A stretch of 35,302 nt of DNA from Bacteroidaceae bacterium (GTDB lineage Bacteria > Bacteroidota > Bacteroidia > Bacteroidales > Bacteroidaceae): assembly GCA_024401185.1 (NCBI GenBank), contig JAKSLO010000016.1, positions 1-35,302 of the forward strand, given 5' to 3'. Made by a program: the position numbers and the translations under genes. The notes under the pieces were generated by a model that worked only from the letters and a program-made list of their open reading frames with translations, was not told the DNA's origin and did no database searches. Positions 1-21,575 of this stretch are shown here, piece by piece. Numbering within the stretch: position 1 is the first letter of the stretch; each line of letters begins with the position of its first letter.

Positions 1-74
1 GAAAACAAAATGTGGATAGATTTGGGCTGCTTGCAACCACAGTAAAAAATGCTAAAACGACAAACGACAACGAG

Positions 75-11842: not shown

Positions 11843-12220
11843 TTAGTTTTTGACCTGACTTATTGGCAACGAATCCAAAGGTTCTTCAAAAGACATCTCT
11901 TGCTTTACGTCGAAGCTACCTTTTTCATCATCCACAGGAATCATCTCAGGCACCCAAACCTTCTTGCGCTTAGCAGGATTCAGCAACATGTCGATGAGGG
12001 TGGTCACATCGCATAGGCCTACTTTCTTGTCACCGTTGGTATCAATCAACGTGATATCTTTGGGCACCTCGCTAATGCCCATTATCATCTTCATAAGTTC
12101 GTCAACGTCAGCAATGGTGAGCGCCTTGTCGCCATTCGTATCGCCAATCCATCGCCATTCTGCATATATGGGTAGCCCTGTAGCTATAAGTATAATAAAA
12201 AGAAACTTTCTCATAATCAT
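11843..12220 (-). CDS. Secreted dockerin-like protein
   Basis: A 125-residue protein with a signal peptide (MRKFLFIILIATGLPIYA) followed by two dockerin type I-like calcium loops, DTNGDKALTIAD and DTNGDKKVGLCD, each with Asp/Asn/Asp/Asp at loop positions 1, 3, 5 and 12 and a following helix. A polar tail of about 40 residues ends the protein. It carries no catalytic or adhesive domain, so it is essentially a free-standing dockerin. It starts 6 nt after the BspA-like gene stops, so the two are probably co-transcribed. Whether it binds a cohesin is unknown; none is seen here. Confidence 0.8.
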   Translation of the reverse strand: MIMRKFLFIILIATGLPIYAEWRWIGDTNGDKALTIADVDELMKMIMGISEVPKDITLIDTNGDKKVGLCDVTTLIDMLLNPAKRKKVWVPEMIPVDDEKGSFDVKQEMSFEEPLDSLPISQVKN

Positions 12221-12226
12221 TCACTT

Positions 12227-15200
12227 TTACTTAACGAACACTTTCTTGCCATTCTTGATATAGATGCCCTTGGCGGCATTCTTCACCTTCCTGCCGCTAA
12301 GGTCATACATCTCCGCCTCTTGCTTGTCGTTTGTTGTCACTTCTACGTTGTCAGTTCCCCACTCGTCATCAAAGACCATAATCTTCACCTCATTCACCGC
12401 CTTAGGATTGCCATTACGGTCGGTCACACTCATATACCAGCGGAAAGGCTGTAAATCGCTGCTTGCAGAAGCTGCTTGCTTCAACGTACCACCTCCCATA
12501 GCATAATAGCCATTTGCCATCATGTCTGTTCCTGTAATGGTTTTATAGGTACCCGTAAAGCAGAACTTAGTGTTCCAGCTTGTTACATCAAAGGTATTCT
12601 CTTCCGTTTTATATAGAATCTCGTTTGTTGATGTTGTTGTCTTGGTTCCTGTATTTTTTGCTTTGATTAAATAAGGAGTGTTGGGTTCTGTATAACCTGC
12701 CTTGATTTTTATTGCCTCAACCTCTGTCATGTCAATTTCTCCATCCTCATCATAGTCGAATTGATGTACGTCATTGATGCGAGCCAATTCAAAATCATTT
12801 TTCCAATCTTCATACTTTATACTGAATGGTATATAAAGTGATTGCCATTGAGTGTTGCTATAAGAACGTGAATATGATATTTTCTTACACTCGGTTTCTG
12901 CTTGATTTTCAAATGTATATCCATCAATAATCTCTGCACCTGTATTCTTAACAGTCACAATACAATATGCAGTAAATCCACCGTCATCAGACGTTGCGGT
13001 TACTATAGCAGTACCCGAACCAATTGCTGTTACAACTCCGTTTTCTGTAATACTGCAAATAGATGGAGTCATGCTTTTCCATATTACCTTCTTATTAACC
13101 GCATCTATTGGAACAATATTTGCGGTTAGTTGAGCGGTTCCTCCTATTTGGTATATTGTAATTGTCGAACAATCTATCGTCAATTCAGTCACCGGCTGAT
13201 TAACAACCACTTTGCACTCTGCCTTTATGCTATGATTACTATCTGGAGTGCCAGTGACAACAGCTTCACCCACATTGACAGCAGTTACCTTTCCATTCTT
13301 ATCAACAGTTACTACCTTTTCATCTGAACTACTCCAAATGATTTTATTATTATCAACGTCAGCGGGAGTTAATGTTGCTTTCAACTGATAACTTCCACCT
13401 TTGTTAATGGCTATTTTCTGTGTATTTATATTGATAGCTGTTGCCACTTTAGACTTGACTATCACAGCTTTCTCTGTCTGTTTTGCTGGATCATAATACT
13501 CATTTCCATCTTCATTTGCATATAGTTTAACCGTTCCAGGTTGCATACAGAGTAGATAGTATTTGCCAGATTCATAGATAACTGTGGCTATATTATTGTC
13601 TGACACAGAATACTGCACTTGGTTTCCTGATGATGAGGTTGCTTTTAACTCAATTTTATCATCAACATAAGTTGTGTTGAAATTTTGTGACCAATTTATG
13701 TTTTGAGTTAGCTTTTCAACTGTGAAAACACCTTGCAGATAAGTTATTTCATAATTTTTGGCACTGGCTCCTGCTATATATATTGGATATGTGCCAGGGA
13801 CAGTATTGCCAACAACCGAAGTGAGAACTGTAGGCTTTGTTGTAAGGACATCTTCATTTTCGCCATTTTTGAATCCTATGTATTCAATTTTGAACTCAGG
13901 ATTTTTTTCACCATATTTTTTTGTACATGAACTAACATATACTGTCAGAGGCGCTTTCTTTATAGTATAACTATATGGTATGTCGCATGAAGTTGTCCAA
14001 TAACTCTTTGAAAAAGTGGTTTTTACGTTTCCTACATGACGCCCAGCAGATGCATGAATAGGGTTGTTTTCAAAAGTGATATCGAATCCAGGAATGTTTG
14101 AACGGTATATGAACTCGGGCGTGTTTCCTGTGTATTCGTATTCAGTATCTTCTATGTCAACCAGTTTACTGCGAATTGCATTTGGGAAAATATTTGCGTA
14201 ATTGTCAGGGTATGCACAATATACATATTTAGGCTTTACACTTTGTGTATCATAATCCATTTTTGGAGAAAACAAGTAAAGGTTTTTAAATGCTTGGCCA
14301 GAAATGATACCTGGAACACTTTCGAATCCGTTACCTATATATACATCTGTTAATAGGTCTGCCCCTATCAAACAATAACTGCCTGTAAATTGGCATCCAT
14401 CTGGATAATTAAACTCTGTGATATTTGTCTCCGAAAATGAACCTTCTCCTATCTCTTTGAGGCATGTAGGTAGCCATGCACTTGTGAGGCTTTCGCACAT
14501 GTCAAACGCATATTCCCCTATGGATTCAATAGCTGGCAAAGTGACAGTTTTTATACCCTTAGATTGTCCGAAAGCGTGTGCTCCTATTTCTGTCAGAATT
14601 GGAGCATTGATGCTCTCTATGGAGTTACATTCATAAAATGCACGTTCTCCAATTCTTGTGATTTTGCTGAAGTCAATATCCATTAAATTTACACATTCAT
14701 AAAAGGTTTTCTTCCCAATGGCTATAGAATTTCCCTCAATAATAACTGTCTTTAGTTTTCGGCATTCACTAAATTCAGAATCTGCCAGCGACTTTACATT
14801 TTTTCCAAACGTTATTTTCTCTAAGCTTGGTGGATTTGAAGAATAAGAGGAGCCCCATGTCGTTTCTTTATCGTCATATACGATAGGACGGTTAATGACT
14901 AATTCTTTCTCACGATGCCAAGTAGAGTATTGTTTTAAATGTATTGGATTGGTTGTTTCTTCAAATACAATTGTAGAGGCATTCATTCCCCAAGTTTCTA
15001 CTTTTGTAACTGTTTTTGGGATTCTTAATGTATTCACGCCGCTTCTATACATTGCATCTTCAAGCATTGTTGTTACCTCATAAGTCTTTTGGTTGTATGT
15101 TACTGATTCAGGAATGCTAATATCTCCTTTGTAGTAAGTCGTATTAGCATTTGGACCGCTAGTTACTCCTACTGTACGTGCTTCTTCCGAGATAATGTGA

Positions 15201-15307
15201 TAATAAATGCCATCTACGATAAAATCGTAAGTGGGAGAAGCTGAACGAACCGCATTGGTGTTCAAAACGAAAACCAACGTAAAAAACAGTTTAACGATAT
15301 TTCTCAT
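12227..15307 (-). CDS. BspA-like leucine-rich repeat surface protein with MBG and Big_2 domains
   Basis: A 1026-residue secreted or surface protein. After a signal peptide (about residues 1-22) comes a BspA-type LRR_5 array (about 70-370; repeats such as IGERAFYECNSIESI and IGEYAFDMCESLTSA). An MBG-like domain follows (about 450-535, with the start PLTVYVSSCTKKYGEKNPEF), then three Ig-like modules, of which the last two are clear Big_2 domains (WSSSDEKVVTVDKNGKVTAV and WKSMTPSICSITENGVVTAI). The C-terminus, YDLSGRKVKNAAKGIYIKNG plus KKVFVK, is the sorting-type tail common in Prevotella and linked to type IX secretion. A role in adhesion is inferred from the family. Its base composition is AT-richer than the core genes. 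Confidence 0.9.
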   Translation of the reverse strand: MRNIVKLFFTLVFVLNTNAVRSASPTYDFIVDGIYYHIISEEARTVGVTSGPNANTTYYKGDISIPESVTYNQKTYEVTTMLEDAMYRSGVNTLRIPKTVTKVETWGMNASTIVFEETTNPIHLKQYSTWHREKELVINRPIVYDDKETTWGSSYSSNPPSLEKITFGKNVKSLADSEFSECRKLKTVIIEGNSIAIGKKTFYECVNLMDIDFSKITRIGERAFYECNSIESINAPILTEIGAHAFGQSKGIKTVTLPAIESIGEYAFDMCESLTSAWLPTCLKEIGEGSFSETNITEFNYPDGCQFTGSYCLIGADLLTDVYIGNGFESVPGIISGQAFKNLYLFSPKMDYDTQSVKPKYVYCAYPDNYANIFPNAIRSKLVDIEDTEYEYTGNTPEFIYRSNIPGFDITFENNPIHASAGRHVGNVKTTFSKSYWTTSCDIPYSYTIKKAPLTVYVSSCTKKYGEKNPEFKIEYIGFKNGENEDVLTTKPTVLTSVVGNTVPGTYPIYIAGASAKNYEITYLQGVFTVEKLTQNINWSQNFNTTYVDDKIELKATSSSGNQVQYSVSDNNIATVIYESGKYYLLCMQPGTVKLYANEDGNEYYDPAKQTEKAVIVKSKVATAININTQKIAINKGGSYQLKATLTPADVDNNKIIWSSSDEKVVTVDKNGKVTAVNVGEAVVTGTPDSNHSIKAECKVVVNQPVTELTIDCSTITIYQIGGTAQLTANIVPIDAVNKKVIWKSMTPSICSITENGVVTAIGSGTAIVTATSDDGGFTAYCIVTVKNTGAEIIDGYTFENQAETECKKISYSRSYSNTQWQSLYIPFSIKYEDWKNDFELARINDVHQFDYDEDGEIDMTEVEAIKIKAGYTEPNTPYLIKAKNTGTKTTTSTNEILYKTEENTFDVTSWNTKFCFTGTYKTITGTDMMANGYYAMGGGTLKQAASASSDLQPFRWYMSVTDRNGNPKAVNEVKIMVFDDEWGTDNVEVTTNDKQEAEMYDLSGRKVKNAAKGIYIKNGKKVFVK

Positions 15308-15358
15308 AATTGTAATAATATTGATTAGTATTTGATGATTGATACGTATTAGGATTTT

Positions 15359-15377
15359 ATCACATATTTATTGTGAT
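15359..15377. promoter_or_regulatory. Palindrome between DUF2971 and BspA-like genes
   Basis: ATCACA at 15359-15364 and TGTGAT at 15372-15377 form an inverted repeat with a 7-nt spacer. It lies between the DUF2971 stop and the BspA-like start, about 50 nt upstream of the latter. It could be an operator or a weak transcription-stop hairpin; there is no clear T run. Confidence 0.35.
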
Positions 15378-15380
15378 CTT

Positions 15381-16220
15381 TTAGCCTTTTTTGCATTCTG
15401 TTTTTGGATCTAAAAAACATGATGATGGTACTTCGTTATACAACCTATGTCCAATAGTTTTAATTTTAAGCTCTTTAGCGAGATTGCTTATTATCGACAA
15501 TTGCTCTTTAGTAGCTTTTTCGTCAACAACTATTTTTTTTAAACATTTAGCAAAATCTATCTTTATGTCAATATATTTACATTTATTATTCTCTTCAAAT
15601 TGGTAACTTTCATTTTCAGTATACAAGAATAGCCGTATTTCATTTTCGTATCTGTACGCCGGTCTTTTGATTAGCATTAATGACAAACAGGTTTCTATGT
15701 TAAGTTCGGAAGAAAAGAACCGTTTGAATAGATACGAGTCTATTGTCCTTAGTTTGTTTATTGTAGAAGTCTGTCTATACGTAACCTTTCCTTCATACAT
15801 TTTTAAACCAGATGGAATGTTTGCCAGCAGTTCCTTTCTTAGTGCTTCAAAATCAAAGACGAATTGAGTGCAGAGCCCCTTTTTTCCTTCTGTCTTTCCA
15901 TACGTATAAACTTTCCAAGCAGCTTCGCAAGATGTGGTTGGTGTTATGCATGTGGCCAATAGTGTTGGCATGTTTTTTTTCCATCCCAACTCTTTTTTGT
16001 AGTTAGCACAATAAAACAGTTTTTCATAAGGGTCTTTCCAACTTTTGGGTTCAATGAAACGAATAGTTCCATTTTCCAAACATTTTTCTGCCGTTTCCAA
16101 ATCCATGTACTTACATACTATCACCTCTCTACATTTACTTCCAAGAATATAATACCGATTAGTTCCATGGTAATTTTCACGAATACTTCTTGGCTCTAAT
16201 CTGTCACTTCTGTTAGGCAT
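15381..16220 (-). CDS. DUF2971-like protein
   Basis: A 279-residue cytoplasmic protein that fits the DUF2971 pattern: an opening KYMDLETAEKCLENGTIRFI followed by a WKDPYEKLF segment, a middle ATCITPTTSCEAAWKVYTYG segment leading to GLCTQFVFDF, then KVTYRQ, and a late KRPAYRYENEIRLFLY segment. DUF2971 proteins have no established activity; many occur in accessory or defence-rich regions. Composition is markedly AT-rich compared with metK or GH115, suggesting recent acquisition. The ATG at 16220 is used, but the first 30 residues are not conserved-looking and an ATG at residue 39 is possible. A minus-strand promoter about 350 nt upstream would make a long folded leader. Confidence 0.7.
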   Translation of the reverse strand: MPNRSDRLEPRSIRENYHGTNRYYILGSKCREVIVCKYMDLETAEKCLENGTIRFIEPKSWKDPYEKLFYCANYKKELGWKKNMPTLLATCITPTTSCEAAWKVYTYGKTEGKKGLCTQFVFDFEALRKELLANIPSGLKMYEGKVTYRQTSTINKLRTIDSYLFKRFFSSELNIETCLSLMLIKRPAYRYENEIRLFLYTENESYQFEENNKCKYIDIKIDFAKCLKKIVVDEKATKEQLSIISNLAKELKIKTIGHRLYNEVPSSCFLDPKTECKKG

Positions 16221-16310
16221 AAATACATCTATTGCCTACATACCCCCATGTATTGGCCTTTTGGATTAAACATATACAAGAAAAACGCAGGGATAATGTC
16301 CTTGCTCATC

Positions 16311-16484
16311 TTGCATCTGGTATCGGCAAACACCATAACTGAAATGAACTGAGTACAATACACCCCGCGCTGAAAGTATAGCAGCTGCATCAGCGCGGAG
16401 CTGTATGCACATACATATACTCAGTACGGGCGTACCGAACTACCTTCATCCTTCAGTTGTGAAATTTTGCCGATTTCGATGCAA
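16311..16484 (-). ncRNA. Candidate structured RNA upstream of DUF2971
   Basis: A nested imperfect inverted repeat pairs almost the whole 174 nt. Arms from outside inward: TTGCATC (16311-16317) with 16478-16484; ATCGGCAAA (16322-16330) with 16466-16474; AACTGAA (16337-16343) with 16452-16458; ACTGAGTA (16348-16355) with 16418-16425; ATACA (16358-16362) with 16402-16406; CCGCGCTGA (16365-16373) with 16390-16398. The apical loop contains the palindrome GCAGCTGC, and one side hairpin (GTACG/CGTAC, 16424-16435) partly competes with the ACTGAGTA stem. The strand is assigned from the promoter at 16568-16598. It may be a leader, a small RNA or a mobile-element end; I do not recognise a family. Confidence 0.5.
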
Positions 16485-16567
16485 AGGATAAAAGCGTGGA
16501 ACGCCTTCTTGGTCATTGTGGCTGTCCAGGAACACATCAAAGTGAACCATGCTCCACATGACGATGG

Positions 16568-16598
16568 CAAAGTTAAAGAAAAAGATTATATCGGCAAA
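16568..16598 (-). promoter_or_regulatory. Promoter reading toward the folded element and DUF2971
   Basis: On the minus strand TTTG (complement of 16595-16598), 19 nt, then TAACTTTG (complement of 16568-16575) match the Bacteroidetes consensus. A start near 16561 gives a leader of about 340 nt before the DUF2971 ATG, including the whole folded element. Confidence 0.5.
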
Positions 16599-16938
16599 GC
16601 ATTCTTCGAAAAAAATCATGGAATATTTGTATGATGCTCGTCATTTCCATGAAAAAACAACGTCTTCATCGCTATTCAACCATACATACAACAAACAATC
16701 AAAGTACTGACTCCAAACGGACCCGGAACCAACTTTTGCGCAATAATCAATAATAACAAATTATACGATTGATAGTTACACTATGTTAGTATATGTAATT
16801 CTAAGCAAAGTAAATATCTTGAAAAGCATCTCTACAAATATCTCCAAAGACAATCTTGCACTCTCTATTCTCGTTGCGTTTGTTAGGAACTTCTTTTGTA
16901 AACATTTACCACTCTTCTTCTCTATGTCTCGAAGTCTT

Positions 16939-16982
16939 CCCGATACCAACCCGATATATTCCCGATATATTCCCGATGCCTT
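16939..16982. repeat. 11-nt periodic repeat, copy A
   Basis: CCCG occurs at 16939, 16950, 16961 and 16972, exactly 11 nt apart; read on the minus strand the units are CGGGAATATAT (twice), CGGGTTGGTAT and a final CGGGAAG. The array is preceded on that strand by an A run and a GGCAT. A related array, in the opposite orientation, lies at 27110-27157. Confidence 0.8.
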
Positions 16983-17143
16983 TTTTTATGTATTATGCCC
17001 CAAAAATGCTTGTTTCGTGGCATAATTACGTTTTTTCTTGTAAAGGATAATTTACATGGCGTAAAAGCTGCTTTTCTTTTTATGTTACCATTTTATAAAC
17101 ATTTTCCGATAAAAGTTTGATGGAATGAGAATATAAAAGTTAA

Positions 17144-19597
17144 CTAAAAGCTGCAATACGTTATTTTCTGCACAATCTGTCCTGGATCGACGATGGTGAG
17201 AGTAAGGGTGTGCTGTTGGCGCGACTTGTCGAGTGGAAGGGTGGCCACAAATTCCTTACGGTTCTCCAGTACCTGAACCTTCCATTCCATGCTCCATTCC
17301 TTGAATACGTTTTCGAACACAACGGGAGTTCCACCATCTACGCAGATCTTAATGCGGTTGCTCTTGTCGGCAGCCACAGGCCACATGGGAAGCACAGACA
17401 AGCATACCTTGATAGAGTCGCCTGTATGATGAAACGTCTCTGCAGGGATGTCAATGTCTATCGAACCTTTGGCATGCTCGTTGAGTGGCTCTCCCATCTG
17501 TAGTGCCAGCCAATCTGTGCCAATGCCTTGCAACAGTCTGAAATCAGGGGTCCGTCCCACAACGTCAGCCAGCGAAGAAAGCTCAATCTTATGCGTAAGT
17601 TCTGGATGAAATTGTGAGGCAGGCAGACGGAAATGATCGGTAGGTTCGTCCACGAGTTCAGGCATCATCTGATATTTTGCCACGAAACCGGGAGGAACTT
17701 CCGACATCATCTGGTTCCATTTGCCATCCAACTGTGTGTTGTATTGCTGCAGCAGGCGTTCAATCTCTTCGTGCGCCTTGCGAGCCTCACGGGCAAAAAG
17801 GGCACTTCCTGTTTCGTGATTAGCCTGTGCATACAAGTATTTACGGTTCATCTGGTAAGCAGAAAGCACCGAGTATCCCAGCATCTCGAAGAGGGCAGGA
17901 CGCAACTCCTTTGAAACGGCCTTCTCGATATCCTCGTAAGCCTGACAGATATTCTGGTAGTCAACAAGTCGCTTCTGAGCCGTCCCTGTCTTGAAAGAAA
18001 AGTCAGTATCGTGCAGTCTATCATTCTCCTGATTATCCCATTCTATCTCGTACCCCATAAACTCAGGCTTGCGATCCCATGCCAAACGGTAATAGTTGTC
18101 GAGAATGAACTGGAACTCCTGCTGATGCGTAGTGCCGAACACCTTTGCCAGCCATTCTGCCTGATAGGTATTGGCATTTTCGTAGTTGAAACGCTTGAAG
18201 TCGTAAGCCATGTCGAAGAACATCTGCGTCTCCACCTCCAAAGGCTTGATGTCTCCCACATTAAGCAGCCAGTAACGGTCAGCCCCTGCCTGATAAGCCT
18301 TGAGCAATTCCTCGTACATCAGCATGGGAGCGGTAGAGGGAATCCACAGATTGTCGTGTGGTGTTCCCAAGTAACTGAGGTGGTAGTACACGCCACTACG
18401 TCCGCCGCGCTTACGTTCAAGACTGTTGCTTACACGTTTCATGTAGCCGTAGTTATCGTCAGGCCAAACCAAGGTGATGTCGTCGGGCACACGAAGTCCG
18501 GCATCATAGATGTCGAGTGTCTCCTTGTAGGGAACGAATATCTGTGGGATGTGACTGGCCTTCTGCATCTTGTACTTCTCAAGAATGGCACGCTGGTCGG
18601 CAAACACCTTCTCAAGGGTACGAGCTCGATCGCCATTGTCAAGACTTCCCTTCATAGCCTCATCGTGCAGTCCACGCATGCCGGTGGTGTAGATGTTGTG
18701 GTATTGAGCCGTCTCGCGCAGACGATTGTCAAACTTCTCCAGAATCCTTTCGCGGTTCGTTTCGTAGTTCCACTCGCCGTCCCGCTCCTTGTCCCACTCG
18801 CTGGGAGCCGCATTGTTGACAAGCAGAGGTTCGCAATGACTGGTAGTAATCATGATGCCCCACTCATCGGCCACCTGCTGACTCTCAGGATGGCTGTAGA
18901 AAGCTCCCGTGCAAGTATGCATGGCTGGAGCCAGCATGTTTCCCTTAAGACGCAAGATGAGTTCGCACACCTTGTCGTAGGTCTTGGGACCAATGTCGCC
19001 CAGTTCCTTTTCGAAGTTAAGAGACGACCACGTCTTCAAGCCCCAGTCCTCATCGTTGATGAAGATGCCACGATACTGGATAGTGGGAGACTGGCTGACA
19101 AAGTTCTCGCAGTAATCGTTGACCACAGGCAATGCCTCTTTGTCTTCCGCATCGCCTCCCTCTGCTTTGGCTACAGCCTGCTGTCCGACCTTAGCCTGAT
19201 GAGGCTTTACGTCAGCAAACCAATACCAGGGATTAACTCCAATGGCCTCGCTAACGTGCAGCACGCCATAGGCTAAGCCTCGTGCGTCGGATCCTGTGAT
19301 GGACAGCGTGTTTCCCTTGGTGTCGATGGCAAACCGTTCCCATGTGCCACGAAGTTCCTTGTGCAGGCCTGTGCATGACGTGGTTGACAGGACTATCTTC
19401 TCGCCTCTCGCTGCTTGTGTGCCAACAAGAGGTCTGATGCCCGAGACACGTTCTATGTCGTCGGCCAGCACCTGTGCCATCTTTCCGACCAGAGGCTTGT
19501 CCTTGGGATTGTACACAATGGTGGCCTTGGTAAGGTCAATGGCCCATGACACCGTTGTGCCGACAACGAGAGACAATAAAAGTATGAGTCGCTTCAT
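17144..19597 (-). CDS. GH115 family alpha-glucuronidase
   Basis: Glycoside hydrolase family 115 removes (4-O-methyl)glucuronic acid side chains from xylan. The 817-residue protein has a signal peptide (MKRLILLLSLVVGTTVSWA), an N-terminal alpha/beta domain with GSDARGLAYGVLHVSEAIGV, then the catalytic barrel with the family signature YRGIFINDEDWGLKTW and LKGNMLAPAMHTCTGAF, and VWPDDNYGYMKR followed by GVYYHLSYLGTPHD. It is at the short end of the family and lacks a long C-terminal extension. No susC/susD pair is adjacent, so it is not part of an obvious polysaccharide locus here. A promoter is visible upstream. Confidence 0.95.
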   Translation of the reverse strand: MKRLILLLSLVVGTTVSWAIDLTKATIVYNPKDKPLVGKMAQVLADDIERVSGIRPLVGTQAARGEKIVLSTTSCTGLHKELRGTWERFAIDTKGNTLSITGSDARGLAYGVLHVSEAIGVNPWYWFADVKPHQAKVGQQAVAKAEGGDAEDKEALPVVNDYCENFVSQSPTIQYRGIFINDEDWGLKTWSSLNFEKELGDIGPKTYDKVCELILRLKGNMLAPAMHTCTGAFYSHPESQQVADEWGIMITTSHCEPLLVNNAAPSEWDKERDGEWNYETNRERILEKFDNRLRETAQYHNIYTTGMRGLHDEAMKGSLDNGDRARTLEKVFADQRAILEKYKMQKASHIPQIFVPYKETLDIYDAGLRVPDDITLVWPDDNYGYMKRVSNSLERKRGGRSGVYYHLSYLGTPHDNLWIPSTAPMLMYEELLKAYQAGADRYWLLNVGDIKPLEVETQMFFDMAYDFKRFNYENANTYQAEWLAKVFGTTHQQEFQFILDNYYRLAWDRKPEFMGYEIEWDNQENDRLHDTDFSFKTGTAQKRLVDYQNICQAYEDIEKAVSKELRPALFEMLGYSVLSAYQMNRKYLYAQANHETGSALFAREARKAHEEIERLLQQYNTQLDGKWNQMMSEVPPGFVAKYQMMPELVDEPTDHFRLPASQFHPELTHKIELSSLADVVGRTPDFRLLQGIGTDWLALQMGEPLNEHAKGSIDIDIPAETFHHTGDSIKVCLSVLPMWPVAADKSNRIKICVDGGTPVVFENVFKEWSMEWKVQVLENRKEFVATLPLDKSRQQHTLTLTIVDPGQIVQKITYCSF

Positions 19598-21310: not shown

Positions 21311-21379
21311 CTATCAATCGACCTGTAATCATAAGATGAGACTCCAAATCCTGGGAGTATATTTTCACTTAACTCAGAC

Positions 21380-21537
21380 TTTGGCAGGTATTCTGACTTT
21401 CCACAGACGTCGGCGTCTTCCCGTTTTCACAGTGACTCGTTGCCAACTCTATAATGTGGATTACAGCTGCAGGAACAGTTCAGGTCTTTCACCTGATTCC
21501 CTTGCACAATGAACCGCTATGGCACATCGTTACCAAA
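21380..21537 (-). ncRNA. Cobalamin riboswitch
   Basis: Read on the minus strand, the element has the B12 box AGGGAATCAGGTGAAA (complement of 21487-21502), the next conserved block near CTGTTCCTGCAGCTGTAA (complement of about 21461-21478), and the 3' block AAGTCAGAATACCT (complement of 21387-21400). Outer stem P1 is TTTGG (complement of 21533-21537) pairing with CCAAA (complement of 21380-21384). These match the cobalamin aptamer consensus in order and spacing. A full promoter sits directly in front of it. The first confident gene downstream is pduO, almost 500 nt away. Confidence 0.9.
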
Positions 21538-21544
21538 TCTGTCG

Positions 21545-21575
21545 CAAAGATATTGTGTTTTTCTTAAACCACAAA
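21545..21575 (-). promoter_or_regulatory. Promoter of the cobalamin riboswitch transcript
   Basis: On the minus strand TTTG (complement of 21572-21575), 19 nt, TATCTTTG (complement of 21545-21552). Transcription would begin at about 21538, exactly at the 5' end of the aptamer. Confidence 0.8.

Follow-up and report, generated by a model that had tools for sequence, protein, structure and literature searches.

The window analysed here, meaning the whole 35,302 nt of DNA under study, comes from a Bacteroidaceae bacterium (GCA_024401185.1, contig JAKSLO010000016.1, positions 1-35,302, forward strand). On its minus strand, a Bacteroidota-type promoter is followed by a structured RNA (16277-16598), and an open reading frame (ORF) begins 56 nt beyond the RNA (Table 1). 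The promoter, which had already been recognised in the first-pass annotation, is an exact match to TTTG-N19-TAACTTTG at 16568-16598; the window contains five TTTG-N19-TAnnTTTG sites compared with 0.11 expected. Transcription would start at approximately 16561-16563 on this strand. The AT-richness of the region, also noted earlier, was borne out by a G+C content of 0.335-0.379 in 1-kb windows across 15001-17000, as against ~0.48 on both sides. The earlier description of the 279-aa ORF as DUF2971-like holds as a weak likeness (18.9 bits, E = 0.004); the gathering score of 22 was not reached and an NCBIfam search with this ORF gave no match. The next co-directional ORF is possibly part of the same transcript, as judged from the 73-nt gap, and the dockerin-like ORF that follows may likewise be co-transcribed. 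The AT-rich stretch at 11843-17000, with its dockerin-like, LRR/Big_2 and DUF2971-like ORFs on one strand, may be one acquired operon. A tandem 11-mer, CCCGATATATT, is found upstream of the promoter (16950-16977), and a similar stretch occurs near another copy of the element (L004).

Folding the minus strand of 16220-16598 gives -131.8 kcal/mol (z = -5.3), better than any of 100 dinucleotide shuffles, and this predicted structure includes the nested pairing that had been described before at about 16311-16484. Since the plus strand gives a nearly equal z of -4.7, a single sequence cannot assign the strand, which is assigned instead by the relatives: on the minus-strand reading, G.U exceeds A.C by 79:10, 66:3, 122:9 and 107:4 in four combinations of alignment and structure.

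Table 1. Features of the locus, in window coordinates; folds A and B are described in the text
Feature	Position	Strand	Basis or remark
Promoter -33 element, TTTG	16595..16598	-	exact TTTG-N19-TAnnTTTG match
Promoter -7 element, TAACTTTG	16568..16575	-	TAnnTTTG motif
5' domain, GTGG...CCAC stem enclosing a hairpin	16518..16557	-	hairpin covaries (window's size class)
Core structured leader RNA, 234 nt	16277..16510	-	model R1, 226.5 bits (this copy belongs to the R1 training set)
Strand 1	16483..16505	-	partner strand 2 (fold B) or partly 16304-16318 (fold A)
Hairpin HA	16461..16477	-	loop complementary to HB
Strand 2	16429..16454	-	partner strand 1 (fold B) or within arm (fold A)
Strand 3	16355..16372	-	inside arm (fold A) or with tail (fold B)
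Hairpin HB, GGU[loop]ACC	16319..16334	-	loop complementary to HA
Strand after HB	16304..16318	-	fold A partner ~16478-16492
Strand 4 (tail), ACAUUAUCCCUGCG	16286..16299	-	3' arm of proposed terminator
U-tract, UUUUUCUUG	16277..16285	-	T-richness at element 3' end
Strand 5, CAUGGGGGUAUG	16239..16250	-	partly complementary to tail; ends 18 nt before start codon
Downstream ORF, 279 aa, weakly DUF2971-like	15381..16220	-	ORF and Pfam match
Next co-directional ORF (LRR_5, Big_2, MBG_2)	12227..15307	-	
Next co-directional ORF, dockerin-like	11843..12220	-	just under Pfam cut-off

A structured RNA spread across the phylum

In the genome of the window, blastn identified five copies of the element with 100, 92, 88, 86 and 72% identity, each set of downstream genes being different. 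Three covariance models were built: R1 from 13 copies, R2 from 21 copies of a shorter class, and R3 from 61 matches, with fold A and the loop helix as its training structure. A sixth copy in the same genome was found by R1 and one more, on contig C10, by R3. R1 matched 72 of the 139 genomes of the genus (E<=0.01). A sample of the family searched with R2 gave matches in 269 of 399 genomes, representing 22 of 30 genera (E<=0.001); in the order, R2 matched 102 of 295 genomes from 72 of 184 genera (E<=1e-4), and in a sample of the phylum 31 of 296, with 29 of the matching genomes lying outside the order. In a panel of 32 genomes, R3 gave matches in 28, with up to 20 in one genome; these 28 were the genomes with earlier R1 or R2 matches, and the other four stayed at zero. 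A 22-base core motif led to 63 contigs, including Bacteroides finegoldii, B. salyersiae, B. clarus, Prevotella pectinovora, Parabacteroides distasonis and Dysgonomonas, and R2 matched 61 of the 63 loci. Three of the contigs are labelled as other phyla and may be mis-binned. Matches also span named Bacteroides, Prevotella, Phocaeicola and Parabacteroides, and five loci from the phylum search have the same architecture by eye.

A search of the whole window against Rfam 15 returned only SAM-II and cobalamin matches, both away from the element, and eight other loci of the family gave none. The SAM-II riboswitch (6-65, plus strand) lies upstream of a 432-aa ORF resembling S-adenosylmethionine synthetase, and the cobalamin riboswitch (21366-21552, minus strand) is near a cobalamin adenosyltransferase ORF. 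The best sub-threshold Rfam match over the element reached 23.2 bits (cut-off 46), and two weak matches seen at a loose threshold were unrelated to it. The open-access literature that we searched contained no description of the family, which is not proof that none exists. Long 5' UTRs, riboswitches assigned by homology and 5' UTR-derived sRNAs have been reported for B. thetaiotaomicron (PMC7366714, PMC10994844), and the passages of these papers that we considered do not describe the family. Many candidate RNAs of human microbiomes have been computed (PMC8040213), and the family may overlap with that list.

A blastn search with the element against phage and plasmid records gave no match. Nine of ten viral-contig stretches found with two core motifs (L244-L252) carry a model match, which may lie in phage sequence or in host flank. 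Several copies (L024, L098, L122, L129 and others) are found no more than a few hundred bases from the end of their contig, as would be expected of repeats. Mismatched loops were seen in three copies (L002:1687-1917, L096:2501-2731 and L068:2131-2380), two of which look recombined between paralogues or mis-assembled, and one of which seems to be without its 3' half.

Covariation in two mutually exclusive folds

Compensatory changes in the stems, which the first-pass annotation had named as a sign to look for, are present in the alignments of copies; that description did not extend to the U-tract, to further copies or to an alternative fold. Fold A is a rod, in which the 5' strand pairs with the strand after HB, the flanks of HA are joined by pairing to those of HB and the arm closes on itself. 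In 13 sequences, column counts gave 52 cells with double changes compared with 17.5 in shuffles, and in 21 sequences 94 compared with 30.6. The loops of HA and HB are complementary in many different ways, such as CGCCA/UGGCG, UGGUAAA/UUUACCA and CUGAGAA/UUCUCAG. When loops were taken from the columns of a model without the loop helix, 78 of 81 distinct pairs shared a complementary run of at least five, and the mean run was 8.1 for own pairs compared with 4.6 for swapped ones, a value that none of 1000 shuffles reached. For the swap and second-set tests HA and HB were placed where their best run of complementarity lay, a choice that tilts the loop test in those sets towards a positive result.

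Fold B consists of two separate hairpins, one formed by strands 1 and 2 around HA and the other by strand 3 and the tail around HB, after which the U-tract follows. We compared own with swapped duplexes in 72 diverse elements and obtained z = -17.2 for 1:2, -22.4 for 2:3 and -14.6 for 3:4. Control pairings of strand 2 with the tail and with the segment after HB were flat (z = -0.1), whereas those of the upstream leader, gap and arm, at between -1.9 and -2.4, and that of strand 3 with the segment after HB (z = -4.9) departed from flatness. Column counts for fold B gave 15 double changes compared with 6.0 in shuffles; here 12 of 500 shuffles reached the observed number of pairs with double changes, and 'further pair types' were not in excess (207/500). 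In the shorter class the count was 24 compared with 10.0, the terminator there being a local hairpin of the strand after HB and the tail and not 3:4, so that column counts for 3:4 come from the 13-sequence alignment only. Column support is therefore stronger for fold A than for fold B. The pairings are presumably not independent of one another, as the fourth helix is largely implied once the other three are given.

In fold B the tail takes up arm nucleotides that are, on average, 83% paired within the arm hairpin, so that the two folds are mutually exclusive. In the window, the full minimum free energy (MFE) is -91.0 kcal/mol, compared with a sum of -81.5 kcal/mol for the two halves apart, and the duplex of strand 3 with the tail amounts to -16.9 kcal/mol. 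Across the 72 elements, halves folded apart, as a stand-in for fold B, average -62.9 kcal/mol and the full MFE -75.3 kcal/mol. Fold B, being on average 12.5 kcal/mol less stable by this measure, would thus need kinetic trapping or help. At the 3' end, 94% of 209 elements have at least 5 T per 8-nt window, compared with 14% and 20% for the same criterion in two later stretches. The U-tract of the copy in the window is interrupted, and a simple scan of its 3' end detected no short-loop terminator. Beyond the U-tract, a fifth strand 8-50 nt past the element covaries with the tail (z = -10.4, n=204; -5.6 in 70 diverse elements), compared with +0.4 and +0.5 for a control stretch at 60-102 nt. At the other end, the pattern of the 5' domain occurs in 25 of 212 elements with 24 distinct inner stretches, whose own halves pair better than swapped ones (z = -8.8).

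These observations recur in a second set of 59 further elements, absent from the earlier sets and drawn from R3 matches in 19 genomes. Swap tests gave z = -15.9 for 1:2, -21.0 for 2:3, -13.9 for 3:4 and -5.7 for 4:5, with four controls between -0.5 and +2.3. Fold A and the loop helix formed part of the R3 training structure, so that the 1:2, 3:4 and 4:5 results are the ones free of model influence. The promoter motif was found upstream in 52 of 58 and downstream in 6 of 58, a U-tract in 52 of 59, and a sense ORF within 300 nt in 55 of 59.

Position between the promoter motif and varied genes

The 234 matches represent 212 distinct elements, 15 of which have no next gene on the contig. For the remaining 197, the next gene lies on the same strand in 188, at a median gap of 58 nt (quartiles 46-76). 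Part of this co-direction is background, because upstream neighbours are also co-directional in 137 of 186 elements. TAnnTTTG occurs within 150 nt upstream in 164 of 196 elements and within 150 nt after the element in 13 of 196. With the motif ahead of the RNA and rarely behind it, the family is best read as a 5' leader and not as half of a type III pair, in agreement with the long regulatory leader that had been offered earlier as one of two readings.

An ORF of at least 50 aa begins soon after 201 of the 212 elements, and these ORFs fall into 131 groups (blastp E<1e-10). The largest comprises 38 ORFs with an LRR_5/BspA-type representative, and the second 12 small proteins that are HTH-like by eye. 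By a rough hydrophobicity rule, 126 of the 201 look secreted. The expected co-occurrence with DUF2971 did not appear, the element being mostly without a DUF2971-like gene downstream. AbiGi, DarT, SIR2_2 and FRG gave single matches among downstream genes, which fall short of enrichment, and a link to defence was set aside. SIR2-like, FRG, AbiGi or DarT genes lie behind L002, L005, L058, L096 and one member of alignment A6.

Probable attenuation and other possible modes of action

We regard the family as a cis-acting 5' leader RNA, with transcription attenuation as its most likely function. RNA polymerase would start at the upstream promoter and transcribe strands 1 to 4. If strand 1 were kept on strand 2, strand 3 would be free for the tail, and the 3:4 hairpin with its U-tract would end transcription before the gene. 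Alternatively, with strand 3 held within the arm, strand 1 on the strand after HB and the HA and HB loops paired, no terminator would form and the gene would be transcribed; strand 5 could hold the tail while the terminator is blocked. We infer this direction, termination by fold B and readthrough by fold A, from the U-tract after 3:4, and the loops may start the strand exchange. A signal favouring one fold, whether a ligand, a protein or a physical cue, would set expression.

It is less likely that the leader works at the level of translation or RNA stability, or through a bound protein, its folds controlling access to the start region in place of termination. Strand 5 would suit such a role, since in the window it stops just short of the start codon and its counterparts covary with the tail. 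So would the leaders of the shorter class, in which an in-frame stop follows the AUG within three codons in 32 of the 40 that carry an AUG (1 and 14 in the other frames). The U-tract right after the tail in nearly all elements is, however, hard to explain without termination. We think it improbable that the element is a free-standing trans-acting sRNA lying upstream of genes by accident: the promoter motif and terminator-like 3' end are what such an RNA would have, but the distance to the co-directional start codon is short and narrow, a promoter motif seldom intervenes between RNA and gene, and a strand lying past the U-tract covaries with the tail. A DNA-level repeat (MITE, REP or recombination site) folding as single-stranded DNA is very improbable; it would account for multiple copies, 72-92% identical within one genome, and for two that look like recombinants, but not for the excess of G.U over A.C, the U-tract or the place between promoter and gene. 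Least credible of all is the initial suggestion that the element and the DUF2971-like protein form a type III toxin-antitoxin pair; the layout alone agrees, against 131 groups of downstream proteins and no tandem repeat found in the element.

The family has a 5' UTR placement, from the positions of motif and ORF, and a conserved structure with compensatory changes, traits by which riboswitches and attenuators are recognised. Attenuators of the trp/his type set 1:2 and 3:4 against 2:3, with U's after 3:4, and the pairings tested here show the same scheme; the family differs in its longer hairpins, loop-loop pairing and fifth strand, and the window's class shows no sign of a leader ORF. Loop-loop contacts are known from the lysine, purine and cobalamin riboswitches, which the family resembles as a 5' leader with alternative folds, pairable hairpin loops and a terminator-like end. 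Unlike these, it has no Rfam match, and we noticed no metabolic theme in the downstream genes. Type III toxin-antitoxin RNAs are likewise structured RNAs ahead of a protein gene, but neither their tandem repeats nor a fixed partner protein turned up here: within 15000-17200 the only tandem array was the 11-mer (2.5 copies), outside the element, and no constant partner of the ToxN/AbiQ kind appeared across the 131 groups, although a rare ToxN may occur beyond the first 25 of their 66 Pfam families. In Bacteroides, the small RNAs FopS and GibS resemble the family in being multicopy in Bacteroidaceae (PMC11697453). FopS is described as having a single-stranded 5' stretch and a terminator hairpin, represses targets in trans and has been deposited in Rfam (PMC11697453); identity with FopS was ruled out on structure, the family having no such layout of a single-stranded 5' seed and then a terminator.

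A broader reading, which we put forward tentatively, is that of a phylum-wide class of switch, which may couple a common signal, through five strands and a loop-loop contact, to scattered surface, regulatory and defence-like genes, and which may travel as a portable promoter-leader module that duplicates, recombines and captures genes. As a regulatory RNA with up to 20 matches per genome across Bacteroidota, the family would add a layer of control, so far unrecognised, to the surface and other accessory genes of gut commensals. Exact mutants can be designed from the two folds, and the set of downstream genes offers a route towards the signal.

Outside the shorter class, a stop follows the first AUG within three codons in 26 of 62 leaders (control frames: 19 and 17). 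As judged by eye, several other copies of the window's class do not preserve an AUG-led frame running through strands 1 and 2. In the shorter class, a GCCUAUG sequence ~31 nt before the core (L101, L127, L142, L143, L203 and others) often has an in-frame stop after 0-3 codons, as in AUGUAA, AUGGCAUAA and AUGAAGCAUUGA, and may represent a start-stop mini-ORF or a small palindrome.
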